This document shows, in pieces, positions 1,300 to 33,936 of a stretch of 64,000 nucleotides of DNA. The stretch comes from Methylophilus sp. 13 (lineage in GTDB: Bacteria > Pseudomonadota > Gammaproteobacteria > Burkholderiales > Methylophilaceae). The number at the start of each line of letters is the position of its first letter. The first letter of the stretch is position 1. Made by a program: the position numbers and the translations under genes. Under the pieces are notes generated by a model. It saw nothing but the letters and a program-made list of their open reading frames with translations. It was not told the origin of the DNA and did no database searches. The stretch is taken from contig NZ_JADKYR010000002.1 of NCBI RefSeq assembly GCF_015354335.1, forward strand, positions 248,001-312,000, in the 5' to 3' direction.

Positions 1300-2175
1300 A
1301 TGCCTAGTAAATGGATTACGGTTGCGCCTTTTTCCAATCCCAATATTGCACCGAAGATTGAGTTACCATTTAACTTAGGTCATGGTGTGTCCATAGCTGA
1401 AATCCCACCTGCTATATTTGCCTTGCAACAAAATGATAGTGTGAGTAAAGCATTTAAAGAGTCTCTCGAGAGCAAAAGATATTGTTTATTGATTGAGTAT
1501 GAAGCTGAGTCACTGGGTCAAGAGCAAATAAACGCTTCTGAAAAACTATGCTTCGCTCACAAAACTTTGTGGCTCCTAAAGAATGCAAGCTTTGGAGTCG
1601 AAGGTTATGGACACATCAACTTGATTGAGAACGAATACATTGTGCGACAGGCGGTGAAGACTTCGATATGTTACCTATCAGGGAATGATGTATATGAGCC
1701 GCTAGATAATGGTGACTTTGATGATTACATCAAAATATTCAACACATTGATAAGCTTAAAAAGAGGAACACCTTTAACGGTTACCTTGAAGTCTATTATA
1801 AAAGGCGTAACCGAGTTTCAATGGGAGTGGAGATATCTTTGCTTTTGGGTGGCTTTAGAAGCTCTTTTTGGAGCTGAGACAGAGATTCGATACAGACTAT
1901 CCCAAAGAATGGGTTTGTTCTTAGGCACGGATTTGAAAGAAGCGTCTGAAATATATGAGTTTATAAAAAGGGCTTATGTTTACAGGAGCAAGGTAGTACA
2001 CGGTTCTGAACTGAAAAAGTTTAATGGGGATGAATCTTTGGATTTAATGGCAGAGCTAGAGCGCCAGTTGAGAAAGGCAGTGATTAAAATATTATCGAGC
2101 CAAAACTTAATCACAATATTTGAGGGAAAAAGTAGAGAGTCATATCTGGATACGTTAGCTTTCAAGTCAAACTAA
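1300..2175 (+). CDS. HEPN-domain (Apea-like) protein
   Basis: I chose ATG 1300, which has a GGGGAGAG ribosome site, over the in-frame ATG at 1258; this gives 291 aa. The C-terminal third has the layout of an Apea-like HEPN domain: a conserved helix with FWVALEALFG, then YRLSQR, then AYVYRSKVVHG. The last segment supplies the R-x4-H motif typical of HEPN ribonucleases. Many HEPN proteins act in toxin, abortive-infection or antiphage systems by cutting RNA, but some are inactive. The gene has no partner antitoxin beside it. It lies inside the tRNA-Ser-associated element, is AT-rich compared with the core, and converges with the resolvase gene with a 9-bp overlap. The domain call is fairly good; a defence role is inference. 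Confidence 0.6.
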   Translation: MPSKWITVAPFSNPNIAPKIELPFNLGHGVSIAEIPPAIFALQQNDSVSKAFKESLESKRYCLLIEYEAESLGQEQINASEKLCFAHKTLWLLKNASFGVEGYGHINLIENEYIVRQAVKTSICYLSGNDVYEPLDNGDFDDYIKIFNTLISLKRGTPLTVTLKSIIKGVTEFQWEWRYLCFWVALEALFGAETEIRYRLSQRMGLFLGTDLKEASEIYEFIKRAYVYRSKVVHGSELKKFNGDESLDLMAELERQLRKAVIKILSSQNLITIFEGKSRESYLDTLAFKSN

Positions 2176-2745
2176 TGAGTTGTTACAGGCTCGCTTAACC
2201 GAACTCAAAGAAATGCCAAAGTGTTTAGCTGTCTCAGCAATAGAAGCGTTGTTATCTGCTCTCCATTGAGCCACTTGGCTGTCCACTATCGTCTTCACTT
2301 TACCAAGGTTCTTGCCTTCGGCCCTAGCTCGCTTAATGCCTGCTAGTTGGCGCTCTCGGATGTTCTCACGCTCCAGCTTGGACAATCCTGCAAGCATGGT
2401 CAACATAAATTCACCGAAGGGCGTGGAAAGGTCAAAGTGTTCTCTCAGAGATATGACCTTCACCCCTTTCTTTTTGAAGGCTTCTACGGTGGTTAGTACG
2501 TCGATAGTGTTACGGCCTAGACGGTCAATGGCTGTCACTACAAGCGTGTCATTCTTATCTGCAAACTTCATGATGGTGGCTAGTGATGGCCGTTCTAAAG
2601 CTGGGACTGTGCCGGACACTGCTGCATCCTGATACCACCTAACATCCTTATACTTTGCTTCGATGGTCATGCGTTGATTATCGCAAGTCTGGTCTTCTGT
2701 AGACACACGGCCATAGCCGATGATTACTCCCTTGTGCTCGCTCAT
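2167..2745 (-). CDS. Small serine recombinase (resolvase/invertase type)
   Basis: A 192-aa serine recombinase. The N-terminal catalytic domain contains GYGRVSTEDQ with the nucleophile at about Ser15, a VVTAIDRLGRN segment with the conserved arginine, and a LERENIRERQLAGI helix. The C-terminal helix-turn-helix follows (SIAETAKHFGISLSSVKRA). ATG 2745 is preferred because AAGGAAG lies five bases upstream; in-frame ATGs at 2769 and 2802 are less well placed. Length and domain order match Tn3 resolvases and Hin/Pin-type invertases. In this element it may resolve multimers or invert a segment, while integration is probably done by the tyrosine integrase at 3416-4657. No transposase gene is beside it. 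Confidence 0.85.
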   Translation of the reverse strand: MSEHKGVIIGYGRVSTEDQTCDNQRMTIEAKYKDVRWYQDAAVSGTVPALERPSLATIMKFADKNDTLVVTAIDRLGRNTIDVLTTVEAFKKKGVKVISLREHFDLSTPFGEFMLTMLAGLSKLERENIRERQLAGIKRARAEGKNLGKVKTIVDSQVAQWRADNNASIAETAKHFGISLSSVKRACNNSLV

Positions 2746-3211
2746 TAGTGCTTCCTTTGGTTGGCTCATTAAGTATGGCTCATAATGTACTGCATGGCTC
2801 AATTAATGTCAACAGCAATGAACCAATCAAAGAGGTAAGGTTTAGCTATGGTCTGGAGTGGCTCACAGGGTACACCTTATGAACCAGTTGGTAATGAGTG
2901 GAGTAAGGACAGCGACTCCTGCTGCCGCTAGTGTTGGGAATTGACTGGCCGTCATGCGCTGGTGATTACCTACAGGTTCTAACTGAGGAAAGGGCTAGGA
3001 GAAACCTAGGTTATCCAGCCGCCGGAAAGGAAACAATTAAAGTATGGATTCGGAAAGGGATTGCTACAGCCACAGCTCGAAGGGGTGGCACGGGGGAAGC
3101 GGCCTACTCCTAAATCTATTAATAACCTCAAACAAATTTGCTGTAGAAATTTTTATTATTCCCGATTCCAAGGCATATAATGCCTCTATCGCATTAATCA
3201 GAAATAGCGCT
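2746..3211. other. Intergenic stretch inside the integrative element
   Basis: This 466-bp stretch is bounded by the leftward resolvase and a small rightward gene. It probably contains the resolvase promoter. A 60-codon frame at 2931-3113 has no ribosome site and no family resemblance. I see no RNA gene, clear repeat or other convincing element. Confidence 0.35.
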
Positions 3212-3394
3212 ATGAGTGATATAACAAAGGTAACTGAAGTAATTGAACTTCGTGTAGCAGCAGACGTGAATAAATATCTAAAACTTGGATGGTGTCTTCT
3301 TCGCATTTCATCAGATAATAGCGAAGGTGCAATTCAGCCAAATCAGTTGTATACGCTAGGCTGGGCTCAAGGTGGGGAAGCTATCCATAATTAA
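3212..3394 (+). CDS. 60-aa small conserved-type protein
   Basis: The frame is longer upstream, but the part that looks like protein starts at ATG 3212 (MSDITKVTEVIELRV). It contains VNKYLKLGWCLLRI and ends with a YTLGW segment. This pattern (VNxYLxxGWxLL then a short stretch and LGW) is, from memory, that of small proteins found on phages and mobile elements, whose function is unknown. No strong ribosome site is visible. It precedes the convergent integrase gene by 21 bp. Confidence 0.45.
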   Translation: MSDITKVTEVIELRVAADVNKYLKLGWCLLRISSDNSEGAIQPNQLYTLGWAQGGEAIHN

Positions 3395-3415
3395 ATTCAT
3401 ATCGAAAGGTATGTT

Positions 3416-4657
3416 TTACTTCATCTGATGGAACGGATAGGACACCTTCTCCAAGGCCTCCCGCTTAATCTCTAGCTCATTGCCATCTGAATACAGGCCA
3501 TAAGTGATGTTGGGCTTTTCATGGCCTACAATGTCCGCTGCAAGGTTCTCAGATACTCTGGCGTTCTCTAGCGCCGTCACCAGTGTTTTGCGGATTGAGT
3601 GGAAGACATAATCACCATTGAACCCTAGGGCTGTCTTCAGCCGCCCAAATCGCTTACCAATAGCATTCGCTCGTTTACCGTGTTTATCAGCCTTCAGCCC
3701 TGAGATTAAATAGCCATCCTTCGAGCCTTTCTTTAAACGAGCAACTACAGGCATGATGGCTGAATGAATAGGAACTAGGCGCACCCCTGCTTTAGTCTTG
3801 GCTGCAACAATACTGAAGCTGTTGTCAGTCACCTCGGTTATCTTCAGACTGCAAAGCTCCTCAATACGTGCGCCTGTGTATGCTCCAATGGCAATAAGGT
3901 CTGCTAGGATTGGGTCGGCCTTACTGGCTTTTGTCCATAAGTCCACGACCTGCTGTTTAGTAAACGGAAGCCATGATTCCGTCTCTTTATCTGGTTCCCC
4001 AAGGACATCCATGAACGGGTCTACCGACCGTGGAGCTGCCCTCCTATGCTTGAGAAACTTCCAGAAATTCCTTGCAGCCCACACTTGGCGTTTACGACTT
4101 GAGTAAGTCTCTCCGTTGTCTTCCAGCTTATCAAGCCAGTTTAATACCGAATCATCGTGAATTGAATCAATCGTAGGGAAGTGAGTTAAGAATGCCGCTA
4201 CATCCTTGGTCATCTGGTCAATAGTTTTGGGCTTTAGCTTGAGCTGCTTCTTCCATGGTTCAAAGAAGGTATTGGACGGTTTGGAGAGACCTGAACCCAC
4301 GCTGTAAAACTCAGCGGCCCTCTTCAAGCCGCGTGAGTCTGCAATCTTCTCGGCTTCCTCGACTAAAACCTCTTCGAGCGTTCGCCTTCTTTCTGCATCC
4401 TGCTGAGCCTGCATCTCAGCGCGGAATTGGACGGCCTTTGCCAAGTGGGCAGTGTCGCTGTTTCTAGCCGCCTCAAGTTGCAACTTCCAGCCAGCAACCC
4501 ATTGGGAAGCAATCAACTCCGCTTTGCGCTTGTCCGTAGTGCCTGTGGACTTTTTGAAACGTAACTGGTCTGGTATTCCGTTAACCCCCCTAAGTGCTGT
4601 TGGAATATCCAAGACAGCATCCCAATTATTTCGACCTTCTCTGATGTACTTTGGCAT
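3416..4657 (-). CDS. Tyrosine recombinase (integrase)
   Basis: A 413-aa phage-type integrase. The C-terminal catalytic domain has the expected residues: R264 in TGARIEEL, H353 and R356 in HSIRKT, H379 in GHEKP, and a tyrosine at 389 (386 is an alternative) in TYGLYSDG. The N-terminal part (residues about 1-60, with RFKKSTGTTDKRKAELIA) is the arm-binding type seen in element integrases, followed by a core-binding helical domain around 125-210. The gene begins 110 bp from a tRNA-Ser 3'-end remnant (4768-4787), the usual position of an integrase next to its attachment site. It very probably integrates and excises the element that extends left beyond the window. Confidence 0.92.
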   Translation of the reverse strand: MPKYIREGRNNWDAVLDIPTALRGVNGIPDQLRFKKSTGTTDKRKAELIASQWVAGWKLQLEAARNSDTAHLAKAVQFRAEMQAQQDAERRRTLEEVLVEEAEKIADSRGLKRAAEFYSVGSGLSKPSNTFFEPWKKQLKLKPKTIDQMTKDVAAFLTHFPTIDSIHDDSVLNWLDKLEDNGETYSSRKRQVWAARNFWKFLKHRRAAPRSVDPFMDVLGEPDKETESWLPFTKQQVVDLWTKASKADPILADLIAIGAYTGARIEELCSLKITEVTDNSFSIVAAKTKAGVRLVPIHSAIMPVVARLKKGSKDGYLISGLKADKHGKRANAIGKRFGRLKTALGFNGDYVFHSIRKTLVTALENARVSENLAADIVGHEKPNITYGLYSDGNELEIKREALEKVSYPFHQMK

Positions 4658-5783: not shown

Positions 5784-7235
5784 ATGTCAGAGCATACTTG
5801 TAGTCCCGGTTGTCAGCATGGCGTTACCCCAGGTAATGAAGCACACATCAAAGAAGAGTTTCACGAGGCAAGGAGGTCTTTTTTAAAAGATGCCTTTGCC
5901 GTCGGCAGCACCACTGCCGCGCTTGGCGCGATGGGGATTACCATGTCGTCAAACGCCTTTGCCCAGAGTCCCAAGGTCGGTACGGGCCGCGCCAATCATT
6001 TTTATGTCCCTGCCAATGACAAAACGGTCCATTGGGGATTTTTCAGTAAATCCCTCAAACCGTTAATTGAGGTCGAGTCTGGTGACTATGTGACCCTGGA
6101 AACCCTGACCCACCATGCCAATGATGATGCCGAACGGATGGTGAGAGGCGATGCGGGCGCAGAAAGTGTGTTTTACTGGGATAGCAAACGCAAAGGAGTA
6201 GACCGTCGCGGGATAGGCGCCATGAATGCCAAAGTGGGCGCAGGGGGTGGCTTAGGTGTCCATATTTGTACCGGGCCGATTGCAGTTAAGGGCGCTGAGC
6301 CGGGTGATATTCTGGAAGTCCGCATTGTGGATGTCACCCCCAGACCCAGCGCTAACCCCTTATACAAGGGCAAGGCCTTTGGCAGTAATGCTGCTGCCTG
6401 GTGGGGGTTTCATTACGGTGACACGATAGAGGAGCCAAAAAAACGTGAAGTGATCACCATTTATGAAGTCGATGCGACCGGGGAAAGAAACTATGCATCC
6501 GCAGTGTATAACTTCCGCTGGACGCCACAAATCGATCCATTCGGAATTGTGCACCCCATCATTGACTACCCCGGCGTCCCGGTCGACCATAAAACCATCA
6601 AAGAAAATCACAATGTACTGAAAAACGTCCGTATCCCTATCCGTCCGCACTTCGGTACCATGGGGGTCGCGCCGAGTGAAGCCGACATGGTCAACTCGAT
6701 TCCACCCAACTACACCGGCGGCAACATAGATAACTGGCGCATTGGTAAAGGCGCCACGCTCTACTACCCGGTATCGGTGTCAGGCGGCTTATTTTCGGTC
6801 GGCGATCCGCATGCGTCACAAGGCGATTCCGAGCTGTGTGGCACGGCCATCGAGTGTTCTCTGACCGGCACTTTTCAGCTGATTTTGCATAAAAAAGCCA
6901 GCCTGCCCGGCACGGCACTGGAAAGCCTGAAATATCCACTGCTGGAAACGCAAGATGAATGGCTGCTTCATGGATTCAGTTATCCAAACTACCTGGCGGA
7001 CTTGGGGCCAGATGCGCAGAATAGTATTTTTGCCAAATCCTCGGTCGATTTAGCCTTGCGCGATGCCTACCGCAAAATGCGCGATTTCTTGATGACTACC
7101 CAAGGATTGAGTGAAGACGAGGCGATCTCACTGATGTCAATTGCGGTTGACTTTGGCATTACGCAGGTGGTGGATGGCAACTGGGGCGTGCATGCGTTGG
7201 TGAAAAAAAGCATTTTCCCGCCGCGCAAAAATTGA
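5784..7235 (+). CDS. Tat-exported acetamidase/formamidase family protein
   Basis: A 483-aa member of the FmdA/AmdA family, which hydrolyses formamide or short amides to ammonia and the acid. ATG 5784 is chosen because GGAG lies nine bases upstream; a longer frame from 5751 has none. The N-terminus carries a twin-arginine-type signal: EARRSFLKDAF followed by a hydrophobic stretch and SNAFA, so the protein is probably folded in the cytoplasm and exported. The mature part has family features such as GGLGVHICTGPI and a long HASQGDSELCGTAIE segment. It is longer than cytoplasmic formamidases (about 400 aa) because of the export extension and a Cys-containing start (CSPGCQHG). It stands alone, so its substrate is unknown. 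Confidence 0.85.
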   Translation: MSEHTCSPGCQHGVTPGNEAHIKEEFHEARRSFLKDAFAVGSTTAALGAMGITMSSNAFAQSPKVGTGRANHFYVPANDKTVHWGFFSKSLKPLIEVESGDYVTLETLTHHANDDAERMVRGDAGAESVFYWDSKRKGVDRRGIGAMNAKVGAGGGLGVHICTGPIAVKGAEPGDILEVRIVDVTPRPSANPLYKGKAFGSNAAAWWGFHYGDTIEEPKKREVITIYEVDATGERNYASAVYNFRWTPQIDPFGIVHPIIDYPGVPVDHKTIKENHNVLKNVRIPIRPHFGTMGVAPSEADMVNSIPPNYTGGNIDNWRIGKGATLYYPVSVSGGLFSVGDPHASQGDSELCGTAIECSLTGTFQLILHKKASLPGTALESLKYPLLETQDEWLLHGFSYPNYLADLGPDAQNSIFAKSSVDLALRDAYRKMRDFLMTTQGLSEDEAISLMSIAVDFGITQVVDGNWGVHALVKKSIFPPRKN

Positions 7236-7263
7236 TCATGCGCCAGAGCATCAGCCTGATAAA

Positions 7264-7300
7264 TTGCTAATGGAAAGGCAACGCGCCTCTCCGTTAGCAA
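7264..7300 (+). terminator. Long hairpin after the amidase gene
   Basis: TTGCTAA pairs with TTAGCAA, extended inward by GGA/TCC and AGGC/GCCT with small mismatches, around a 5-nt loop. It lies 28 bp after the amidase stop. The following sequence has only a short T run (ATCTATTT), so it is a probable but not strong terminator. Confidence 0.5.
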
Positions 7301-13819: not shown

Positions 13820-14575
13820 TCAAAACAAGCGTATCAGCCTAAAACTCCATAGTTTTTCTGCGCTTTGCGCAGGGTTCAAGGTCGAGACTGCCATACCCAT
13901 CTGCAAGGTATAACGCTCGCTCGCATCGAAATGTACTTGTGGCGTCAATCGGTAACGCCAAGTACCGCCGCGGCTGATTTCCTGATTTATTTCCATGCCC
14001 AAGGTCACGCGCGTCGATGCATCATAAAACACCGAGTGATTAAGCAAATAGCCAGCCCTGGCACGCCGATTGACATCCTGTACACGCAGTCCCAGCATAC
14101 TCAGCGACGACCATGGCTCAGTCCATCGTTTGGCGACAATATAGGTTGCATCGACAGAAACAGTTTTACTATGTTTATGCATATCAACAAAAGCCTGCCA
14201 ACCGGTGGCCATGCCTCGCGCAGAGGAAACCTGCAGCGTCTGCTGAATGGCCAATTTATAGCGTTCGTGCCGCGTATTCTCGATAGGCAATTCCAACTCC
14301 ACCCCAATGTCGTCCGCCAGGCCATATTCAAGCTCAGGCGCCCAGCTGACATCCCCAGTCGCCGCACTCACATCCACCAGCGCATTTACCTCCAGATCGC
14401 CCTGCTTCACCCCCAACGGTCGCACCAGGTCATAGACCATAGGCTCAGGCACTCTCAACACACGGTCACTATGCGCAGCATCCGATTCAAGAAATAGCGC
14501 TTCTTCAGAAGCCTCCGAAACAAGGGCGCTGGTTAACAGCAACACATAAGCACAAACAACAGCACAGACGTTCAC
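13820..14575 (-). CDS. Exported beta-strand-rich protein of unknown function
   Basis: This 251-aa protein begins with a signal peptide (MNVCAVVCAYVLLLTSALVSEA). After an acidic segment the rest alternates polar and apolar residues in short strands (LEVNALVDVSAATGDVSWAPELEYGLADDIGVELELPI, shown in pieces: ELEYGLADDIGVELELP and TRVTLGMEINQEIS). It ends in an aromatic residue (FRLIRLF), as outer-membrane barrels do. A small outer-membrane barrel is therefore likely, but no named family is recognised. It is convergent with the aminotransferase and sits next to the ancestral tRNA-Asn site. Confidence 0.6.
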   Translation of the reverse strand: MNVCAVVCAYVLLLTSALVSEASEEALFLESDAAHSDRVLRVPEPMVYDLVRPLGVKQGDLEVNALVDVSAATGDVSWAPELEYGLADDIGVELELPIENTRHERYKLAIQQTLQVSSARGMATGWQAFVDMHKHSKTVSVDATYIVAKRWTEPWSSLSMLGLRVQDVNRRARAGYLLNHSVFYDASTRVTLGMEINQEISRGGTWRYRLTPQVHFDASERYTLQMGMAVSTLNPAQSAEKLWSFRLIRLF

Positions 14576-14801
14576 AATTACATTTATACAAATATAAAAA
14601 CCACATCATACCAAGCAAGCGACCAACGCTCCAAGTGATTCCTCCTCACACAGGTTATTCTTGTTTGACATGCGCAGGAAAGCCTTTGGAAGCAAACAGC
14701 AATGATCAGGCGTTTGCAAAATAAACAAAGAGAGAGATAAAGAATGCATCAGGATAAGGTGATCCGATATTGCGAAGCGCTAGGCAATGCTGCAGAAAAG
14801 C
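14576..14801. other. Host intergenic region left of the tRNA-Asn element
   Basis: This stretch lies between the exported-protein gene and the stranded terminator. It probably holds the promoter of the leftward gene. A 36-codon frame from 14745 runs into the terminator and is not convincing. Nothing else is visible. Confidence 0.35.
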
Positions 14802-14833
14802 AAAAAGGCCTCGCATTTCTGCAAGGCCTTTTT
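14802..14833 (-). terminator. Original tRNA-Asn terminator, now stranded
   Basis: AAAAAGGCCT pairs with AGGCCTTTTT around a 12-nt loop, with a T run on either strand. It ends four bases before the left 7-bp repeat of the inserted element. Joining the two flanks without the element would place this hairpin directly after the CCA of tRNA-Asn on the minus strand, so it is most simply the tRNA's ancestral terminator. No gene of its own is evident next to it. Confidence 0.75.
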
Positions 14834-14837
14834 CTAT

Positions 14838-14844
14838 TTGGCTC
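14838..14844. repeat. Left attachment repeat of the tRNA-Asn element
   Basis: TTGGCTC, identical to 19302-19308. Left of it is host sequence (the stranded terminator), right of it the element. A short core is what large serine recombinases typically leave. Confidence 0.7.
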
Positions 14845-14917
14845 ACCATCTTAGATAAAACTGATAACTGGATTCTAACTTGTAAAATTTGAATCTATAC
14901 ATACGCACCAACTTGAA

Positions 14918-15655
14918 TTATTCAGACGCAGTTTTTTTTGTAGGCACACCTACGTTTTTTGCTTTTCCTAATTTTTCTTTGAGATCTCTGATTGATTGAG
15001 TTCTTTTTAATTTTTCATCTGGGATTACGTAAATTTCATGCAAAATGGCTTTAAATGTTTCAAGAAAAAGCTGTAAGTTACGACTATCCCACGCTATCCA
15101 ACTTTGTTCATGAACATGATCACTGGTCATATCTTTTATGTGACCTAAAATTTCAAATAAAACAGGATCAATAAATAAATATTTTTTTCTTAAACTTTCA
15201 ATTTTATCGTCGTAATTCGCACCTTCAACCCTCTGCAGTGCAAGTAGCTCGTAAATACCTTTGCGTGTGCATGCAGATGCGCCAGTTAGATAATTCATTT
15301 TTGCGCAACCTTCAGCTTCTGAAATCAACTCTCTTATTTCTTTGGGGATACGGTTATCGACAACAAAAAATGATGTAGGTACCGAATAAAAAAATTCCTG
15401 ATCTAAATCCACGTCATCTTTAAATCTGCCAAAACCGTAAGATGAATCTTGAAGGTTTGAAAAAGTCAAATGCATTGATATATGTTGGCAGCTTTCACAA
15501 ATAACTCTCCATATGTAGCAAATTTTGTCACTAGTCCAATGAAAACCCTCGGAACCAAGATTTCTATATTTAACATGACGCCTATTGCAGTAAGGGCAAT
15601 TGTAGATATCGTGTGTAATAAAATATTTTGAATCTAGATGGGAGTGATCTTGCAC
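14918..15655 (-). CDS. DUF4145-domain protein with N-terminal zinc finger
   Basis: A 245-aa protein. Residues 20-56 hold two CxxC pairs (CPYCNRRH at 20-23 and CESC at 53-56), which look like one zinc finger. From about residue 100 it matches the DUF4145 layout: a segment VVDNRIPKEIRELISEAE, then a helical NYLTGASACTRKGIYELLA, and a tail with WDSRNLQLFLETFKAILHEIY. DUF4145 is a HEPN-like domain often found alone on mobile elements or next to restriction and defence genes. The protein's function is unknown. It is the only leftward gene in the element and so the likely cargo. Very low GC and A/T-ending codons set it apart from the core. Confidence 0.75.
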   Translation of the reverse strand: MQDHSHLDSKYFITHDIYNCPYCNRRHVKYRNLGSEGFHWTSDKICYIWRVICESCQHISMHLTFSNLQDSSYGFGRFKDDVDLDQEFFYSVPTSFFVVDNRIPKEIRELISEAEGCAKMNYLTGASACTRKGIYELLALQRVEGANYDDKIESLRKKYLFIDPVLFEILGHIKDMTSDHVHEQSWIAWDSRNLQLFLETFKAILHEIYVIPDEKLKRTQSIRDLKEKLGKAKNVGVPTKKTASE

Positions 15656-15687
15656 TGGTTTATTCCTGATGGTTAGTTGAACTGTAA

Positions 15688-15708
15688 CCCCGTTTATGTA
15701 ACACGGGG
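15688..15708. repeat. Hairpin in the element's divergent intergenic region
   Basis: CCCCGT pairs with ACGGGG around a 9-nt loop (TTATGTAAC). It lies between the leftward DUF4145 gene and the rightward replication genes. It could be an operator, a leftward leader structure, or part of the origin nicked by the replication initiator; the sequence does not decide between these. Confidence 0.4.
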
Positions 15709-15767
15709 GGCTCTAAATACATAAACAACAGAATAAAATAAAAATTTATCCTTGTGTTTTAATTTGA

Positions 15768-15796
15768 TTGACATTTAAATATTATTATTTTAGATT
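15768..15796 (+). promoter_or_regulatory. Sigma70-type promoter of the replication/recombination genes
   Basis: TTGACA (15768-15773) and TAGATT (15791-15796) are separated by 17 bp in an AT-rich stretch, 32 bp before the ATG of the first rightward gene of the element. Confidence 0.65.
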
Positions 15797-15828
15797 CATT
15801 TGAAATTCAAACAACATACGGATAAATT

Positions 15829-16263
15829 ATGAAATCAGCTCATTTACATGATATGTGGTCAAGCCCCGACAACGGGCGACTAGTTTCCAAGCAAATTTCA
15901 CTTCGTTTACCTGTTCATATTGCTGCAAAAATAGCTGCATTGAGTGAACTATACCCTCAAAAAAATCGCACTCAAATTATTGCTGATTTATTAACTCTTG
16001 CTTTGGACGATCTCGAAAAAAATTTACCATATTCAATACATGAAGCACCAAGACATGTACAAGATCAAGAGAGGGATGTCTCACAACATTTAGGTTACGA
16101 GATTGAGACAATCTATGAGCTAGGCGGTGCACGTGCGCAATTTCGTTGTGCTGCCAATAAGTACTATTTGGAGTATGAGAAAGAGCTAGGAAATGAAAAG
16201 CCAACAGCACTATATGGCTCAATTTATGGCTCCCAAGATTATTTGGAAAATCTGGATAAATGA
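15829..16263 (+). CDS. Ribbon-helix-helix-type small DNA-binding protein
   Basis: A 144-aa protein. Residues 20-66 (KQISLRLPVHIAAKIAALSE and NRTQIIADLLTLALDDL) have the strand-helix-helix layout of CopG/Arc-type regulators. The remaining 75 residues are unassigned. The gene is first in the rightward set of the element, 32 bp after a good promoter, and its stop overlaps the replication initiator start (ATGA). It probably controls replication copy number or expression of the set. This is inferred from fold and position. Confidence 0.6.
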   Translation: MKSAHLHDMWSSPDNGRLVSKQISLRLPVHIAAKIAALSELYPQKNRTQIIADLLTLALDDLEKNLPYSIHEAPRHVQDQERDVSQHLGYEIETIYELGGARAQFRCAANKYYLEYEKELGNEKPTALYGSIYGSQDYLENLDK

Positions 16264-17333
16264 ATTTCAAATATCTTCTTTCCAGCTTCGACACCATTGA
16301 GTGTGCCTATTACTTGATCCCGCTCGATCAGGCCAGACTTGACTTTCTGGACTTAGCATCCCAGAAAGAGGCATTAATCAAGGCTAAGATAAACAAGCCC
16401 AAGCCAATTAAGCTCGGTTGTGAAGATTTCTTGCTTGCTTCACATGGCACATCAAGCGGCTATCCATTTTTGATTGAAAATGATGTGTTCATCATTCAGT
16501 TTGGCGAATTTAACCGTCCAAACTTCTTCGTCAAATTTCGCAGTATTGCCTTATGGCATAACAGCTTGCTGGATTTGCATAAGCGTTTTTTAAACTGGGC
16601 TGCATCCGTAGGGTTGACTCAGGCACAGCCTGAGCGATTGTCGCGCGTGGATTATGCGTTTGACTACCATCTGCCAGTGGTCGATTTTGATGAAGATAGT
16701 TTTGTATCTCGTTCAACTAAAGACAGCCAATATCGCAAAGATGGCAAAGTCCAGACGTTTAAATTCGGCACTGAAAACGTGGTGCTAAGGGTTTATAACA
16801 AAGTCGATGAAATCAATGAGCAAAGTCAAAAAAACTGGCTTTTCAAATTGTGGGGGATGGATCAGGATGTCTGGCGTGTTGAATGGCAGGTCAGAAAAGA
16901 TCAGCTCCGCAAAATAGGCATTTCATCTATGCAATCTCTTGAGGAACGTCAGGCAGACCTTTTGCGATTGCTTTCAACCAATCACACTACATTAAGAATT
17001 AAAGCAGATGACAGCAACCGATCACGGTGGGATATGCATCCACTCTGGCTTGATTTGTTAGCCCAAATTGATCAACTTCAAGGTTTAGGCGTCAAGCGTG
17101 AACATAAGCCGCTTGATCTTTACGATGAGCGATTAACTCGCATTGCAATGAGTGTTTATGGCTATCTTAAAAGAGTGGCTGCAATCGATGTTTTATATTC
17201 AGGGAATCAAAAGTCATACATGGATGAAACGTTTCAGCATTTATTCAATATCGTTTCTGAAATTCATGATCCATTGACATGGCAACAAGAGGTTGACCGT
17301 AGAGCGAATGAAATGAGGTTAGGCGAATGGTAA
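16260..17333 (+). CDS. Rolling-circle-type replication initiator (Rep_trans-like)
   Basis: A 357-aa protein with the motifs of replication initiation factors of plasmids and integrated elements: RVDYAFDY at 129-136, RVYNK at 177-181 and WRVEWQVR at 205-212. In the family a tyrosine nicks the double-strand origin and stays bound to the 5' end; I cannot say which tyrosine does so here. It is coupled to the preceding regulator gene by ATGA and to the following gene by a 7-base overlap. Its presence suggests that the element replicates after excision, or is a captured plasmid replicon. Similarity by motif is good, but exact family assignment needs a profile search. Confidence 0.7.
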   Translation: MNFKYLLSSFDTIECAYYLIPLDQARLDFLDLASQKEALIKAKINKPKPIKLGCEDFLLASHGTSSGYPFLIENDVFIIQFGEFNRPNFFVKFRSIALWHNSLLDLHKRFLNWAASVGLTQAQPERLSRVDYAFDYHLPVVDFDEDSFVSRSTKDSQYRKDGKVQTFKFGTENVVLRVYNKVDEINEQSQKNWLFKLWGMDQDVWRVEWQVRKDQLRKIGISSMQSLEERQADLLRLLSTNHTTLRIKADDSNRSRWDMHPLWLDLLAQIDQLQGLGVKREHKPLDLYDERLTRIAMSVYGYLKRVAAIDVLYSGNQKSYMDETFQHLFNIVSEIHDPLTWQQEVDRRANEMRLGEW

Positions 17334-17533
17334 TTGCATTAAGTAAATTGATTGAAATGATCAACGAGCGCAAAAACATGGTGCTTCTAGTGGCTGAGTC
17401 GAGTTTGCCTGAAAACCAGTTTAGAGCATTCAGAAAATTTTTATTGATTCAGTTCGGTGATAAGGGCTTGGAAGGGGAGTTGCAAAAGATATACACCGAG
17501 AGTCATTTTGATGAACGGAATGGGCGGGAATAG
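17327..17533 (+). CDS. 68-aa small protein of unknown function
   Basis: It starts at ATG 17327 inside the last codons of the replication initiator (7-base overlap) and ends at 17533. The sequence is helix-rich (SKLIEMINERKNMVLLVAE and ENQFRAFRKFLLI). No family is recognised. The overlap implies translational coupling, so a role in replication or recombination is plausible. Confidence 0.55.
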   Translation: MVIALSKLIEMINERKNMVLLVAESSLPENQFRAFRKFLLIQFGDKGLEGELQKIYTESHFDERNGRE

Positions 17534-17562
17534 ATTATGCACGAAAGGGGGTGCCATCATGA

Positions 17563-17712
17563 TTGAGCAAGCAATCCATAGAGCTGCTGATCATTCTGTA
17601 TCAACAGCAAGCCGATGAAAATGTAAGTGAAGTAGAGTTGCAGCATATCAGCACGTTTTTTCCAGAAATTTTAGCTGAGATATTGCAGCGTATTGAACAA
17701 GACCAGGAGTAA
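17563..17712 (+). CDS. Possible 49-aa small protein with TTG start
   Basis: This frame reads SKQSIELLIILYQQQADE and continues helically to EILQRIEQDQE, ending six bases before the recombinase ATG. The only start is TTG 17563, directly after an in-frame stop, 12 bases from GGGGG. An ATG at 17559 in another frame has better spacing but encodes only 19 codons. Either the TTG is used or one base is missing. The protein-like character and the coupling to the recombinase make it worth keeping. Confidence 0.35.
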   Translation: MSKQSIELLIILYQQQADENVSEVELQHISTFFPEILAEILQRIEQDQE

Positions 17713-17718
17713 ACCAAA

Positions 17719-19344
17719 ATGGCGGTTGCACTTTACGCGAGAGTTTCCACAGTCAGGCAAGCTGAAAAGGATTTATCCATCCCTGATCAGATTAATCAAA
17801 TGCGTGACTGGTGTCAGGCAAATGGCTATGTCGTGGCGATGGAGTATATCGAGCCAGGTGCGTCCGCCACCGATGACAGGCGACCAGTCTTTCAGCAAAT
17901 GATTGCAGACGCTACGAGCGACAGCGAACCTTATGAGGCCATCATTGTGCATAGTCGGTCACGCTTCTTTCGCGATATGTTCGAGTTTTTGAACTATGAG
18001 CGCAGATTAAAACGGGCGCATTGCAAGCTGGTTTCAATTACTCAGATTACAAGCGATGATCCTGCCGGCGAAATGGCTAGCAAAATATTCAGCTTATTTG
18101 ATGAATACCAGAGCAAAGAGAACGGCAAACACACAATCCGCGCCATGAAAGAAAATGCCAGACGCGGTTTTATGAACGGATCACGCGCACCCTTTGGCTA
18201 TCGTGCGATTGAAATCGAGGTCATGGGCGCCAAGGGCAAAAAGAAAAAGAAAATTGACATTGATCCGGTTGAATCTGAAATCGTCAAAAAGATTTTTCAT
18301 TTGTACCTGTTTGGCAACGAATACGGTCACATGGGGGCAAAAGAAATTGCTACCTATCTGAATGATAAAAACATCAAGCTACGCACTCAAAAATGGAACC
18401 GTGGCCGAGTGCATGAGGTGCTAAGCAATAAAGCCTATATTGGCGAGTATTACTTTAACAAGCGCAACAACAAAACAGGCGAGCTGAAATCATCAGACGA
18501 ATGGATCAAGGTCGAGATACCTGCCATTATTGAGGCGAGCACGTTTGAGGACGCACGCATCCGCAGAGCGGAGCGCGCGCCCGCAAAAGTGCCGCCGAGG
18601 TTGGTCAATTCCCCGACACTGCTCACTGGCATATTGAAATGTGGCATCTGTGGTGCAGGCATGACGCTGGCAACGGGTAAAGGCGGGCGATATCGGTACT
18701 ATAAATGCAATACACGCATTGGGAAGGGCAATCATTTGTGCACCATGCCTGCCGTTTCAATGGAAAAACTGGACAATCTTGTGCTGACCACCCTTGCAGA
18801 CAAGGTTTTTACGCCGGAGCGAGTATCGACCATGATGCAGGAGATGCGCAAACGGGTTGTCCAGCGCAATAAAGAACAGTCCAACAACGCGCAGCCGCTA
18901 CAAAAAGAACTGGAAGAGTTAAACCAGCGCAATGAGCGTTTGTTTGAAGCGGTGGAGAAGGGCTTTCTGCCAATGGACGAAACACTGCAAGCCAGATCAA
19001 GAAGCATCCAAACCAGACGACAGGATATTTTGCTTGAGATTGCATCCATGAAGCGGCAGCAGGATATGCCAGTCGATGCGCTCAATCAAAAGAACATCAA
19101 AGTATTTATTCAGGTGCTTAAAGAGAAACTCACAGATCGCAAATCAAATTTCGGCAAACAATACTTAAAAGGGCTGATCCAGCAAATAGTGCTTAAAGAT
19201 GGAGAGGCGACCATATCAGGAAGTTATGACGCCATGGCAAGTGCGATTGTTGAGACGAAAAAAATGGGCACTGAATTAACAGTGCCCACTTTTGCATCTA
19301 GTTGGCTCCTCAACCTGGGCTCGAACCAGGGACCTACGGATTAA
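17719..19344 (+). CDS. Large serine recombinase (site-specific integrase)
   Basis: A 541-aa large serine recombinase. The catalytic domain has YARVSTVRQ with nucleophile S10, HSRSRFFRD and a GEMASKIFSLFDEYQS segment. A Recombinase domain follows (about 150-290, with GSRAPFGYRA and VHEVLSNKAYIGEYYF). A zinc ribbon comes next (CGICGAGM and YYKCNTRIGKGNHLC) and then a coiled coil at about 370-450. AGGAG lies nine bases before the ATG. The last coding part overlaps a terminator hairpin and then the antisense of tRNA-Asn: residues after SSW are encoded by the host tRNA as far as the stop at 19342-19344. It should integrate the element into tRNA-Asn; excision normally needs an additional small factor, perhaps one of the small upstream genes. 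Confidence 0.92.
   Translation: MAVALYARVSTVRQAEKDLSIPDQINQMRDWCQANGYVVAMEYIEPGASATDDRRPVFQQMIADATSDSEPYEAIIVHSRSRFFRDMFEFLNYERRLKRAHCKLVSITQITSDDPAGEMASKIFSLFDEYQSKENGKHTIRAMKENARRGFMNGSRAPFGYRAIEIEVMGAKGKKKKKIDIDPVESEIVKKIFHLYLFGNEYGHMGAKEIATYLNDKNIKLRTQKWNRGRVHEVLSNKAYIGEYYFNKRNNKTGELKSSDEWIKVEIPAIIEASTFEDARIRRAERAPAKVPPRLVNSPTLLTGILKCGICGAGMTLATGKGGRYRYYKCNTRIGKGNHLCTMPAVSMEKLDNLVLTTLADKVFTPERVSTMMQEMRKRVVQRNKEQSNNAQPLQKELEELNQRNERLFEAVEKGFLPMDETLQARSRSIQTRRQDILLEIASMKRQQDMPVDALNQKNIKVFIQVLKEKLTDRKSNFGKQYLKGLIQQIVLKDGEATISGSYDAMASAIVETKKMGTELTVPTFASSWLLNLGSNQGPTD
19265..19288 (-). terminator. Replacement terminator for tRNA-Asn, carried by the element
   Basis: TGGGCACTG and CAGTGCCCA form a perfect 9-bp stem with a 6-nt loop. 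On the minus strand it is followed by seven T residues and lies 14 bases after the tRNA CCA, so it is a strong terminator for tRNA-Asn. It lies inside the coding end of the recombinase, on the element side of the right repeat, so the element brought it in. Confidence 0.85.
19302..19308. repeat. Right attachment repeat of the tRNA-Asn element
   Basis: TTGGCTC, identical to 14838-14844. It includes the complement of the tRNA-Asn 3' end GAGCCA plus one base, so recombination there keeps the tRNA intact. Confidence 0.7.
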
Positions 19345-19378
19345 CAGTCCGGCGCTCTACCGACTGAGCTATTGAGGA
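19303..19378 (-). tRNA. tRNA-Asn (anticodon GTT), CCA encoded
   Basis: On the minus strand, TCCTCAA (19378-19372) pairs with TTGAGGA, followed by discriminator G and encoded CCA (19305-19303). The D-arm AGCTCAG-type, the anticodon arm GGACTGTTAATCC with GTT, and the T-arm GGTTCGAGCCC are all visible. The length is 76 nt. The 3' end is the insertion site of the element on its left. A good promoter lies upstream. Confidence 0.97.
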
Positions 19379-19402
19379 ATCGGTACGTCGTTTGAAGGCG
19401 CT

Positions 19403-19431
19403 ATATTACTGAGACCACGCCCCTTGGTCAA
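19403..19431 (-). promoter_or_regulatory. Sigma70 promoter of tRNA-Asn
   Basis: On the minus strand, TTGACC (19431-19426) and TAATAT (19408-19403) are separated by 17 bp, and the tRNA begins 25 bp further on. The GC-rich spacer resembles stable-RNA promoters. Confidence 0.8.
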
Positions 19432-19599
19432 CCACTTTTTGCGAAATATTTTATATTTTTTTGGCCACAGGCCAGCCATCTGCAAAATGCCACTCACGCT
19501 GCAAATTTTCGGCAAATTTTTGTAATATTCAGCTTGTCCAAGCTTGACAGACTTAGGCATGTAAGGTTATGAGGATATAATATTTCCAGGAGAATAAAG

Positions 19600-20145
19600 A
19601 TGCATAGCATGGTGGCAAAAATTTCACACCTGGATGGTCAGGTCGAGGCGGTCAACGCAATGGGCCAGCACCGGCCACTGAGCGCTGGGGACTGGTTACG
19701 TGAGGGTGAGCGTATTGTGGCGCAGGATGGCGCTCAGGTTTCGCTGGAGACTGCGACTGGTGAACGCTTGCAGGTGCAAGGTCTGCAAACCATGACACTG
19801 AGCGCGCAATTGACGGCGGATTATCTGCCGCATGCCAGTGATGATGCGATTGATGCACAATTGTTGCAACATGTCCTCTCCTCATTACAGGCGGGCGATA
19901 CCGAACTGGATATTTCTACCCTCTTACAATCACCGCTGGAGTTTGCCGCTTTTGCGGCCCCAGCGGATCATCCGCCACAAGCGGATGCCTTGCATATCGC
20001 TGACTTGATCCCTGAACAAGCCGCCGCTGAACATGGTCCATCCAGTTTAGCGCCTAACGATAGTGTCGCGTTGATGGTTGCCACCGCATTGCCTAGCGAG
20101 ATCGCGCTGCAGCAGCAACTATTAAAAGACATGGATCAGCACTAA
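19600..20145 (+). CDS. Small protein resembling an adhesin retention module
   Basis: A 181-aa protein starting at ATG 19600 with CAGGAG nine bases upstream. Residues 1-70 (VAKISHLDGQVEAVN, LSAGDWLREGERIVAQDGA, then TGERLQVQGLQTMTL) resemble the first beta domain of LapA-type RTX adhesin retention modules, or a FecR-like fold. Residues 90-120 (LQHVLSSLQAGDTELDIST) resemble the helical segment that follows it. There is no transmembrane segment, no double-alanine cleavage site that I can see and no large adhesin downstream. The gene ends at a strong terminator. It could be a free-standing relative or the remnant of an adhesin gene. The family assignment is tentative. Confidence 0.55.
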   Translation: MHSMVAKISHLDGQVEAVNAMGQHRPLSAGDWLREGERIVAQDGAQVSLETATGERLQVQGLQTMTLSAQLTADYLPHASDDAIDAQLLQHVLSSLQAGDTELDISTLLQSPLEFAAFAAPADHPPQADALHIADLIPEQAAAEHGPSSLAPNDSVALMVATALPSEIALQQQLLKDMDQH

Positions 20146-31622: not shown

Positions 31623-31892
31623 ATGTCAAGTCCATCCAAAGCCCCTCACCGAGAAGCCAAGCTGTTCCGCAACAACCGCAGCCAAGCTGTGCGCATCCCG
31701 GTTGAGTTTGAGCTACCAGGTGATCGTGTATTAATTCATCGTGAAGGCAACAAGCTGATTATTGAACCAGTAGCACGTCCCGCCAACCTTGCCGAACTAT
31801 TGGCGCAATGGCGTCAGGAGCCACCACTCGCGCCAGAAAATCAATTCCCGGATATTGAAGATATGCCCGCCAAGCCGGAGGACATATTTTGA
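31623..31892 (+). CDS. vapB: VapB-type antitoxin (AbrB/MazE fold)
   Basis: This 89-aa protein starts at ATG 31623 with AAAGGAG upstream. Residues 12-50 (EAKLFRNNRSQAVRIPVEFEL and GDRVLIHREGNKLIIEPV) form the swapped-hairpin DNA-binding fold of VapB/AbrB antitoxins. The C-terminal part (LAQWRQEPPLAPENQFPDIED) would wrap the toxin. It overlaps vapC by four bases (TTGA). A perfect palindrome over the promoter is its likely binding site. Confidence 0.9.
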   Translation: MSSPSKAPHREAKLFRNNRSQAVRIPVEFELPGDRVLIHREGNKLIIEPVARPANLAELLAQWRQEPPLAPENQFPDIEDMPAKPEDIF

Positions 31893-32293
31893 GTGGCTAC
31901 TTGCTAGATACCAATATCATCAGCGATCTGATTCGTAATCCTTCAGGTGCCGCCGCACGCCATATTGAGCAAGTTGAGGCTAAAGACATCTTTACCAGCA
32001 TTATCGTCGCCGCCGAGCTGCGTTATGGCTGCGCAAAAAAAGGATCAGTCAAACTTACAGAAAAAGTAGAAAATCTACTCGCCACCATCACGGTGATCCC
32101 ATTAGAGAACCCAGTAGATACCGAGTATGGACGCATCCGCGCAGAACTTGAAGCAGCAGGCCAAACCATCGGCATGAACGATTTACTGATTGCTGCACAA
32201 GCCTATACTTTAAAGCTAACACTTGTAACGGATAATCTGCGAGAATTTAGCCGTATTCACGGCCTCAAAATTGAAAACTGGCAGGAGCGATAG
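31889..32293 (+). CDS. vapC: VapC-type PIN-domain toxin
   Basis: A 134-aa PIN-domain ribonuclease starting at TTG 31889, coupled to vapB. The acidic active-site residues are D7 (LLDTNIISDL), E43 (AAELRYG), D98 (GMNDLLIAA) and D115 (LVTDNLREF), all present, so the toxin should be active. VapC toxins cut tRNA or rRNA when the antitoxin is lost. The pair begins an AT-richer accessory stretch and may help to keep it. Confidence 0.92.
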   Translation: MSGYLLDTNIISDLIRNPSGAAARHIEQVEAKDIFTSIIVAAELRYGCAKKGSVKLTEKVENLLATITVIPLENPVDTEYGRIRAELEAAGQTIGMNDLLIAAQAYTLKLTLVTDNLREFSRIHGLKIENWQER

Positions 32294-32369
32294 CTGATGA
32301 AGGTTTTAATTTTACTCTGACACCAATCTACGTATGGAAATCATCAACCTTCAATAACTCTAGGCAATC

Positions 32370-33038
32370 ATGCGAAAAATCACTCTGCTTATTTTTATCG
32401 CAATAGTCGTTGCGATTACAGGAAAAGCTGTAGCAACTGAAATTAATGATAATTCAAATAAAGAGGTGAACATCGCCTCATTCAGAAAGGTCATGGAAAC
32501 TGGTCATAAACTACCTATTGATAAAAATATTAAACTTCAAATGGTATGGAAAGAAAATACGCCAGTTAAAGAACTGGACTCTCTGACAGGCGATACGAAA
32601 ATAGTTGCCCTATATAAAGTTTTATTTTTGGTTAATAAAAACGAAAAGTTTATCTTTGATCAAACTGAAACAAACTCACATCAATTGGCAGCTAGTCTTC
32701 TGAGTAGAGTGGAGGCTTTATCAAATATCAAAGAGTTAGTTGGCAATTCTGAATTAGAGCTTGCTATAAAAGAATATTTAAATAATGAACTTGCTGATTT
32801 GACGTTAGTTCATTCAAGTACTTTAAGCCAAGATGAATATTCCAAAGCAAGGAAAATAAGAAATGAAAAGCTTTGGTCAAATCTAACTGGAAATGAGGAC
32901 TTTAACAAAACATTCTCCATCAACACCAACAACGAGCAACAAAATCAGCTAGTAAGAAACGTCGCAAACCTAACCTCATGGCTTGCATACTCTAAGATTT
33001 GCATGACTCATAAAGAAGATCTATGCGTGAAGTTATAA
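32370..33038 (+). CDS. Exported protein of unknown function
   Basis: A 222-aa protein with a signal peptide (ITLLIFIAIVVAITGKAVA). The mature part is rich in Lys, Asn, Glu and short helices, and two cysteines near the end (KICMTHKEDLC) could form a disulfide. No family is recognised. Its codon and base use is AT-rich like the other genes of this island. A strong terminator follows at 33113. Confidence 0.6.
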   Translation: MRKITLLIFIAIVVAITGKAVATEINDNSNKEVNIASFRKVMETGHKLPIDKNIKLQMVWKENTPVKELDSLTGDTKIVALYKVLFLVNKNEKFIFDQTETNSHQLAASLLSRVEALSNIKELVGNSELELAIKEYLNNELADLTLVHSSTLSQDEYSKARKIRNEKLWSNLTGNEDFNKTFSINTNNEQQNQLVRNVANLTSWLAYSKICMTHKEDLCVKL

Positions 33039-33112
33039 ACCATTTCACATAACTCTCTGCAGGTCCTTTGATTGTAAAAACCTCTTTTAAAAAGGAATTC
33101 ACTTTTGCACTC

Positions 33113-33143
33113 CCCCATGTTATTTGACATGGGGTTTATTTTT
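33113..33143 (+). terminator. Rho-independent terminator
   Basis: CCCCATGT and ACATGGGG form an 8-bp stem with a 6-nt loop, followed by TTTATTTTT. It lies 75 bp after the exported-protein gene. Confidence 0.85.
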
Positions 33144-33250
33144 AGACAAGTGAACGAACCTTTTACAAGACTTGGGATGGAATATTAAATAGAATCAATC
33201 GTGTATGAACCTTTAGATTCTGCTTATTTTATTTTGCAAGACCTGACCCC

Positions 33251-33548
33251 AAGATTGATTGCTGTGCTTATTGCTTAGGGATTCACCCCAAATCACTCCG
33301 CGCTGCTGGCGAAAGCAACTCACGCATTGATCAACTAGGCGGCTGGCAAGTGAGTGACCAATATACCGAAAAAGAGCGCGCAGCCCTGGCGTGGACAGAT
33401 GCGGACCAACATCACGACCTCAGGCACACCAGATGATGTTTTTAACGCATTAAAGGCGCATTTTACTGATCAAGAAATCTCGGACCTAACATTTGCGATT
33501 ATTACTATGAATGAGCTGAATAGATTGGGCATAAGTATGCGTAAATAA
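33251..33548 (+). pseudogene. Remnant of an AhpD-like carboxymuconolactone decarboxylase family gene
   Basis: Translation from 33251 gives KIDCCAYCLGIHPKS, then LRAAGESNSRIDQLGGW and KERAALAWTDA; after a frame change near 33400 it continues as GTPDDVFNALKAHFTDQEIS and ends in [13 protein letters not shown]. These pieces match the order of the AhpD-like family, including the CxxC (CAYC) and ERAALAW. The N-terminal part is missing and the frame is broken, so it is a decayed copy. Confidence 0.8.
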
Positions 33549-33558
33549 TTTTAAGTTT

Positions 33559-33918
33559 GTGGCTTGCGAAGGCAAAAACCTCACAGAAAGACTTCAAGAG
33601 ATTGAAGTCTTTCTTTATTCATTTTGGCCTGCATATGATTTACAAAGGCTTCCAACCAGAATAGCCCAAAGAAGAAAACCAACCGAACACGACTTCTACA
33701 TCCTCGCAGTAGCAACCAGAATAGATACCATGGCCGTTGGTGTCAGCCTGGCGTTTATGGATGTGAATATATTTATCACCGCCGCAGCCAGAATGATAAA
33801 CTTAAGCACACAGATCATTTTTATATATTCTCTCTATTTTAATATTCATAAAATGGCATTATTAGCTTTACACAAAGCACTTAGATTAATACCTTTTAAT
33901 GTAATAGCGAACCTTTGA
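33559..33918 (+). pseudogene. Probable remnant of an MntP-like manganese exporter gene
   Basis: An open frame of 119 codons from GTG 33559. Only the central piece looks like a known protein: [20 protein letters not shown] resembles the MntP motif with an SIDAMAVG core, preceded by HDFYILA. In functional MntP that Asp-containing motif occurs twice in a six-helix protein. Here the serine is replaced by Arg and the flanks do not fit, so this is most likely a fragment or fusion remnant. It could still be translated, but a function is not suggested. Confidence 0.5.
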
Positions 33919-33936
33919 CTATATAAGGAGAACCCA

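Follow-up and report, generated by a model that had tools for sequence, protein, structure and literature searches.

A small integrating element with a rolling-circle initiator and a large serine recombinase at a tRNA-Asn gene of Methylophilus

The RS1 satellite and the inovirus prophages contain a Rep_trans-type initiator and a few small regulators within a few kilobases, and in the pair formed by RS1 and CTX the export machinery of the helper packages the single-stranded circles of the satellite. The element dealt with in the present study, which occupies positions 14838 to 19308 of a 64-kb stretch of DNA from Methylophilus sp. 13 (contig NZ_JADKYR010000002.1, positions 248,001 to 312,000; the whole stretch is called the window), has a similar make-up. 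RS1 and the inovirus prophages, however, integrate by XerCD at dif, whereas the element in the window would enter a tRNA gene by means of a large serine recombinase that it encodes itself.

The closest published idea that we found is that successive waves of integrase-plus-Rep elements, which then lose their mobility, build up defence islands (PMC12458937). As far as the available part of that report describes them, the tRNA-targeted islands of E. coli have in common with our element an integrase with a rolling-circle initiator, a position at the tRNA 3' end, defence cargo, and immobilized copies with recombinase remnants, but they are prophage-like and possess 16–20 nt repeats, an HUH Rep, AlpA-like excisionases and large cargo, in contrast to the serine recombinase, 7-bp core, Rep_trans-like fold and size of 4.4–7.1 kb found here. 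The element family fits this picture of immobilized waves, with other parts and at a far smaller size. Integrative mobilizable elements (IMEs) with Rep_trans or MobT proteins are likewise small and integrating and sometimes use a serine recombinase; their recent serine recombinases disrupt dispensable genes according to the accessible text of PMC5704250, whereas the element described here has no recognized relaxase, is found in Betaproteobacteria and targets tRNA. The PICMI satellites resemble it in their minimal gene set, size of about 6 kb, defence cargo and reported rolling-circle replication (PMC10803314, in the portion available), but are marked by AlpA, a primase and a location by fis, none of which is found here: the five element proteins covered by our domain scans gave no match to AlpA, a primase or a capsid-redirecting gene. 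The IntY islands at tmRNA share an RNA-gene target, defence cargo and the absence of transfer genes, but the part of the report at hand (PMC12595487) describes a tyrosine integrase with AlpA, a larger size and, in one case, movement by a jumbo phage. The original prediction for this locus knew of no named family with such a layout, and we also found none in the open-access literature. Two arms, a hairpin, Rep and the recombinase are all parts that can serve as search queries, and they define a kind of small element that integrates, has a rolling-circle initiator and in many cases brings defence genes with it.

Exact insertion at tRNA-Asn

The element is bounded by two TTGGCTC cores, attL at 14838–14844 and attR at 19302–19308, which lie 4464 bp apart just as originally predicted and are assigned from the sequence and from alignment with a genome of the same species that lacks the element (G060). 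The right core overlaps the 3' end of an intact tRNA-Asn(GUU) gene on the minus strand (19303–19378). G060 has the predicted joined site, where the tRNA terminator continues straight into the tRNA, and the clean joining of the flanks proposed from the window is thereby confirmed, so that the original prediction withstands the refuting condition set for it: window positions 14300–14844 align with positions 6138–6678 of the G060 locus (L060) at 94.7% identity and positions 19299–19900 with 6669–7270 at 98.7%, and both alignments meet at the core. The empty site indicates that the insertion separated tRNA-Asn from its own terminator, recognized by eye at about 14798–14834, which adjoins the tRNA in G060 and now forms the host-side half of attL. 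At the other end, a hairpin between A- and T-runs (19266–19287, by eye) likely terminates transcription in both directions, that of the tRNA included. By itself, the TTGGCTC repeat is weak evidence, and it is absent among the 20 largest of at least 60 repeat families; the empty site is decisive and rules out a chance 7-bp repeat. The GC content is 41% in the element and 52–54% in the 5-kb flanks.

The recombinase (17719–19344, plus strand) matches Resolvase (PF00239), Recombinase (PF07508) and a zinc-ribbon (PF13408), all over their gathering scores. Its final codons lie inside the tRNA, so that the frame comprises 541 aa when integrated, and it would comprise 545 aa with a different end in the presumed circle. 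Arm profiles mark the 27 bp following the left core (14845–14871, plus strand) and the 21 bp preceding the right core (AGTGCCCACTTTTGCATCTAG, 19281–19301, plus strand); the two are inverted relative to each other and resemble the half-sites of an attP for a serine recombinase. Across the 16 complete copies described below, the left arm scores 17.7–36.7 bits, nine of these copies having trained the profile, and it is common in copies without Rep, too; the right arm, whose profile was trained on eleven arms, has its minimum of 13.3 bits in L124 and scores at least 21.9 bits in the others. Next to the core on their tRNA side, the complete copies have a T-arm-like sequence (GGCTCGAAC, as in the tRNA-Asn of the window, or ATTCGAAC and similar) at a near-constant distance. 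The T-arm is probably the host half-site for the recombinase, which suggests how an enzyme of this class can use tRNA genes, with the universal T-arm serving as the half-site.

We consider it likely that the element is intact and autonomous in both integration and replication. The recombinase would recombine attP, in which TTGGCTC is flanked by the inverted arms, with the part of tRNA-Asn that comprises the acceptor end and the T-arm, keeping the tRNA whole and providing it with a replacement terminator. The excised circle would be copied as a rolling circle after nicking by Rep in or beside a hairpin at 15688–15722, a small regulator would limit Rep, and one gene would be carried as cargo, possibly directed against phages. 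Rep (16260–17333, plus strand, 357 aa) and the recombinase are under purifying selection, with dN/dS values against M. methylotrophus of 0.045 and 0.040, respectively.

Complete copies, the hairpin and Rep

Among 187 genomes of the bacterial family, relatives of Rep of the short type occur in 10 (two of them partial), with a fragment in one more; a Rep match of any kind was obtained in 28, of which 17 have a longer Rep type alone. When 84,980 named species were scanned with two peptide patterns alone, 17 loci were obtained, from Methylophilus, Methylotenera, Methylobacillus, Nitrotoga, Thiobacillus, Azonexus, Dechloromonas and Zoogloea and from two sources labelled more coarsely, one as Methylophilaceae only and one as Pseudomonadota only; the six of the eight genera that were looked up are all Betaproteobacteria. 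Sixteen copies are complete (the window, L061–L067 and L117–L124, with L119 and L120 on one Azonexus contig), measuring 4.4–7.1 kb from end to end. The database check that accompanied the original prediction, a search for the same gene order, finds it in all 16: left arm, cargo, hairpin, regulator, Rep, large serine recombinase and right arm, followed by a tRNA or a tRNA-3'-half-like sequence. In ten of them the tRNA on the right is intact according to ARAGORN, namely tRNA-Asn in the window, L061, L117, L119, L122 and L123 and tRNA-Arg in L063, L064, L065 and L067; the remaining six adjoin a tRNA-3'-half-like sequence, and the target types comprise tRNA-Asn, tRNA-Arg(ccg), tRNA-Arg(acg) and the half-like sites. 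L069 and L070 are partial copies, and in L068 Rep is kept while the recombinase, hairpin and right arm were not found. One locus by a ThiC-like gene (by eye), at which ARAGORN called no tRNA, holds both the complete L066 and the Rep-less L128 (G069), and a relative without an insert there (L151 in G066) has a T-arm-like sequence. In plasmids, Rep gave three distant matches, the cargo none and the recombinase 15 at 1e-40 or better; two of these recombinase regions were opened, and neither showed any other part of the element. A phage record with a 39% identical recombinase (MT839362) was dropped, being an unverified 4.3-kb scaffold with no Rep among its ORFs by eye.

A form of the hairpin is present upstream of the regulator in every complete copy; in the window it lies on the plus strand together with GGCTCTAAATACAT. 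GTAACACGGGGGG is invariant in all 16 while the surrounding letters vary, and in the bacterial family the hairpin reads CCCGnnnATGTAACACGGGG, then mostly GGCTATAAATACAT. The exact hairpin was found at 21 places in 20 of the 187 family genomes against none for a reversed-pattern control, and at 25 places against one when a mismatch was allowed. At the order level it appeared in one of 399 sampled genomes (L160/L164), where no Rep of the element family was seen by eye within 8 kb and a different serine-recombinase-like ORF is present. Its position, conservation and hairpin form fit our proposal that it is the double-strand origin nicked by Rep. It might instead act as a promoter or an operator for the cargo gene, which starts directly downstream on the minus strand in the window and in many relatives, but the distance from the hairpin to the cargo start, taken from the longest ORFs, varies (about 33 bp in the window, 88 in L130 and 108 in L128) and the cargo ORFs beside the hairpin in L127 and L131 point the opposite way, which makes this explanation very improbable.

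The original prediction assigned Rep to the Rep_trans-type initiators, an assignment that is borderline by sequence and supported by the predicted fold. With an AlphaFold2 model (17-sequence alignment, pLDDT 81.9, pTM 0.70) as the query, four chains of 4CIJ, a solved initiator of the Rep_trans family, top the PDB list at E 4e-12 to 2e-11 and probability 1.0, and the viral structure matches are headed by Reps of inoviruses (Inoviridae). Several tyrosines, e.g., Y136 and Y179, are invariant. The combination of such an initiator with a large serine integrase, but no relaxase, in an element at a tRNA had been called unusual. The original prediction was right about the object and about this oddity, but Rep_trans plus an integrase at tRNA-Asn also occurs in another genome of the same genus (G073). 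There an element of about 5.6 kb (L078, 1708–7362) has a tyrosine integrase together with a protein that matches Rep_trans (PF02486) at E 4e-29. The 3' part of the tRNA is duplicated in L078. Eight loci with the longer Rep type were read (L071–L077 and L079; frames of 424–480 codons, 26–33% identical to the Rep in the window). An integrase-like ORF comes after Rep in all of them, and seven of the eight fetched stretches include a tRNA (Arg, Lys, Phe or Ser); the integrase of L077, whose own Rep has no Pfam match, is the sole one confirmed by Pfam. These loci may represent a sister kind with tyrosine integrases and, together with the G073 element, suggest that the layout of cargo, Rep and integrase by a tRNA has been reached with two unrelated recombinases.

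Replication and passage between cells

Several findings weigh against an intact, autonomously replicating element. Neither the circle nor a nick nor excision was observed. The match of Rep to Rep_trans (PF02486) has an E-value of 1.1e-5 and, at 25.5 bits, lies below the gathering score of 29.6; the superposition on 4CIJ is loose (TM 0.42–0.56, rmsd about 8), and the profile match to 4CIJ (E 0.008) places no Tyr and does not fix the catalytic tyrosine. As single-stranded DNA the hairpin is mildly stable compared with shuffles (z -1.9), and its left stem is broken in L120 and L124, from which its sequence seems to matter more than its pairing. Moreover, the match of the cargo protein in the window to a defence profile is weak, and host proteins give chance matches of similar strength.

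One alternative is that the element is a phage satellite, most plausibly with a filamentous, inovirus-like helper that exports the single-stranded circles made by Rep. The resemblance of the Rep fold to Inoviridae Reps agrees with this idea, a length of 4.4–7.1 kb would suit a filamentous particle, and defence cargo is known from satellites, as the available part of PMC10803314 indicates. We nevertheless regard it as rather unlikely, since the five scanned proteins gave no match to a capsid, a coat or a Zot-like (Zot/pI-type) morphogenesis protein, a search of viral contigs for close relatives of Rep confirmed none, phages gave eight distant partial matches, and the hairpin had no match in viral contigs in its long form and a single repeat-rich, chance-like one in its short form; no phage partner was identified in these viral-contig and phage scans, to which the search for a helper was confined. 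It is quite improbable, in our estimation, that the element belongs to the integrative mobilizable elements, with Rep serving in addition as a MobT-type relaxase at the hairpin and a resident conjugative system providing transfer. Rep_trans-related proteins do act as relaxases (MobT) in Firmicutes, and this qualifies the original statement that the element lacks a relaxase, which holds by profile in that no canonical relaxase domain was found in the five scanned proteins, oriT not having been searched for. In the accessible text of PMC5704250, however, MobT is described in connection with Firmicutes and the coupling proteins of that group, whereas the relatives found here are Betaproteobacteria, and a second mobilization gene was not recognized in the scanned proteins. 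The element also offers a minimal system for asking how spread is achieved in the absence of transfer genes.

Cargo, copies without Rep and other features

The cargo was sampled as 30 hand-chosen proteins, the larger ones, from 27 loci, and compared by PADLOC with 10 host proteins of the window. Matches at E 1e-3 or better were obtained for 12 of the 30 cargo proteins and two of the 10 host proteins, and at 1e-10 or better for eight and none, respectively. The strong matches are an Mrr-type nuclease (L061), PDC-M36A (L067), a DrmA-like ATPase (L123), a T5orf172 protein (L130), Thoeris ThsA and ThsB (L133), ThsA alone (L129) and an OLD/Gabija-like ATPase (L153); weaker ones are a TIR-like protein (L121), GmrSD (L128, Pfam E 1.5e-12), AbiGi (L160) and the gene in the window. 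PADLOC gave no match for the other 18, one of which (L064) is a transposase. Judging from these matches, some of the cargo (Thoeris, Mrr, OLD/Gabija-like, PDC-M36A) is clearly defensive. The cargo gene of the window (14918–15655, minus strand, about 245 aa) is a candidate defence gene that matches PD-T7-4 of PADLOC over residues 14–236 (E 2.1e-5) and is possibly anti-phage. Its match to DUF4145, named in the original prediction, does exist (E 0.009) but at 16.5 bits is under the gathering score of 23.1; for the five scanned proteins the gene content is otherwise as had been described, with serine-recombinase domains and a sub-threshold Rep_trans match. Delivery of defence genes by such elements is suggested by the relatives in other bacteria and by the large number of degraded copies.

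Eight of the 21 exact hairpins are accompanied by Rep and 13 are not. The latter, with six loci from other searches, make up 19 Rep-less hairpin loci, of which 12 have a left arm (18–34 bits; opposite-strand maximum 10.9, best of 1900 permuted scans 16.4). Among the seven misses, less than 1.6 kb of upstream sequence was available in L132, L134, L135 and L160 and 1.5 kb was fetched for L157, while the arm was missed in L139 and L153 even with more sequence available. A right arm of at least 12 bits was detected in three loci (L132, L135 and L160; permuted 99% point 10.5, opposite-strand maximum 3.3) and not in the other 16, with L139 borderline at 9.5 bits. A left-end profile built from 22 arms, Rep-less ones included, found 61 places in 41 of the 187 genomes (E 0.01 per genome, about two expected by chance, paired ends counted twice), and the origin of some small tRNA-linked loci in this bacterial family thus becomes traceable. 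No Rep or recombinase lies to the right in 28 further left-end regions, for which the rightward sequence amounts to at least 6 kb in 15 and less in 13; one has the hairpin with two changes (L209), and four have a weak right-arm score of 11–13.5 bits (L198, L200, L207 and L212).

The right-arm scan and these 28 regions make right truncation with retention of the cargo the default reading, and the Rep-less copies look like mostly right-truncated copies of this kind. Our first reading, that they are proven cassettes, was abandoned on the same grounds. That they are non-autonomous cassettes which complete elements still mobilize in trans, in the manner of miniature transposons, seems doubtful: the 13 exact hairpins, the 12 left arms, the three right arms and a polymorphic Rep-less copy, about 2.5 kb in G069 where G066 has 71 bp, would be expected of cassettes, but the right arm was not found in 16 of the 19 loci, L130 has by eye an apparent tail of the recombinase gene (with no tblastn match at 1e-4), and the 28 left-end regions show neither Rep nor recombinase and a single hairpin. 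Simple truncation accounts for most of these observations.

Dual left ends, with an Asn-like and an Arg-like core 56–58 bp apart in either order, were observed in L119, L130, L133, L138, L163, L196 and L220, and this arrangement gives the impression that target specificity was switched or doubled. An inner second attP in them was rejected, as the right-half scores are above the null mean but only two of the seven exceed the 95% point. Beside a tRNA-Arg, L161 (5722–8499) has two tandem units, each preceded by the same host terminator and core by eye, as though the second insertion had met a target site made whole again after the first. A two-tier system, in which complete elements would supply Rep and recombinase in trans to Rep-less cassettes that keep the left arm, hairpin and core, dual ends would allow the use of either of two integrases, and repeated insertion with partial loss would build tRNA-linked defence arrays, is in our view unlikely.

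As for the other genes of the element, the small regulator (15829–16263, plus strand) is ribbon-helix-helix-like by eye and matched no Pfam family at a believable E-value, and its slot in the relatives is taken by one of at least three unrelated-looking proteins (by eye). Rep is followed on the plus strand by a conserved small ORF of 68 aa (17327–17533) and a second one of 49 codons with a presumed TTG start (17563–17712), which is a possible directionality factor. Sequence comparison revealed a strongly conserved nucleotide block between the two (17517–17562, plus strand). In frame 3 it reads EWAGIDYARKGVPS followed by a stop in the window and lacks a start of its own; by eye, several of the differences seen in relatives are synonymous, which is suggestive of a coding frame; an RNA structure in this block of about 48 bp was rejected because its folding is no better than that of shuffles (z -0.2).

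Elsewhere in the window, positions 31889–35424 contain a PIN-domain toxin-like gene and a 495-aa ORF, P-loop-like by eye and with no Pfam match, adjoining a CobW-like gene; a similar arrangement was seen by eye near a diverged hairpin copy (L155), and the region may be another exchange site. Near the left end of the window, a small resolvase and a tyrosine integrase (2167–4657) mark another mobile region.

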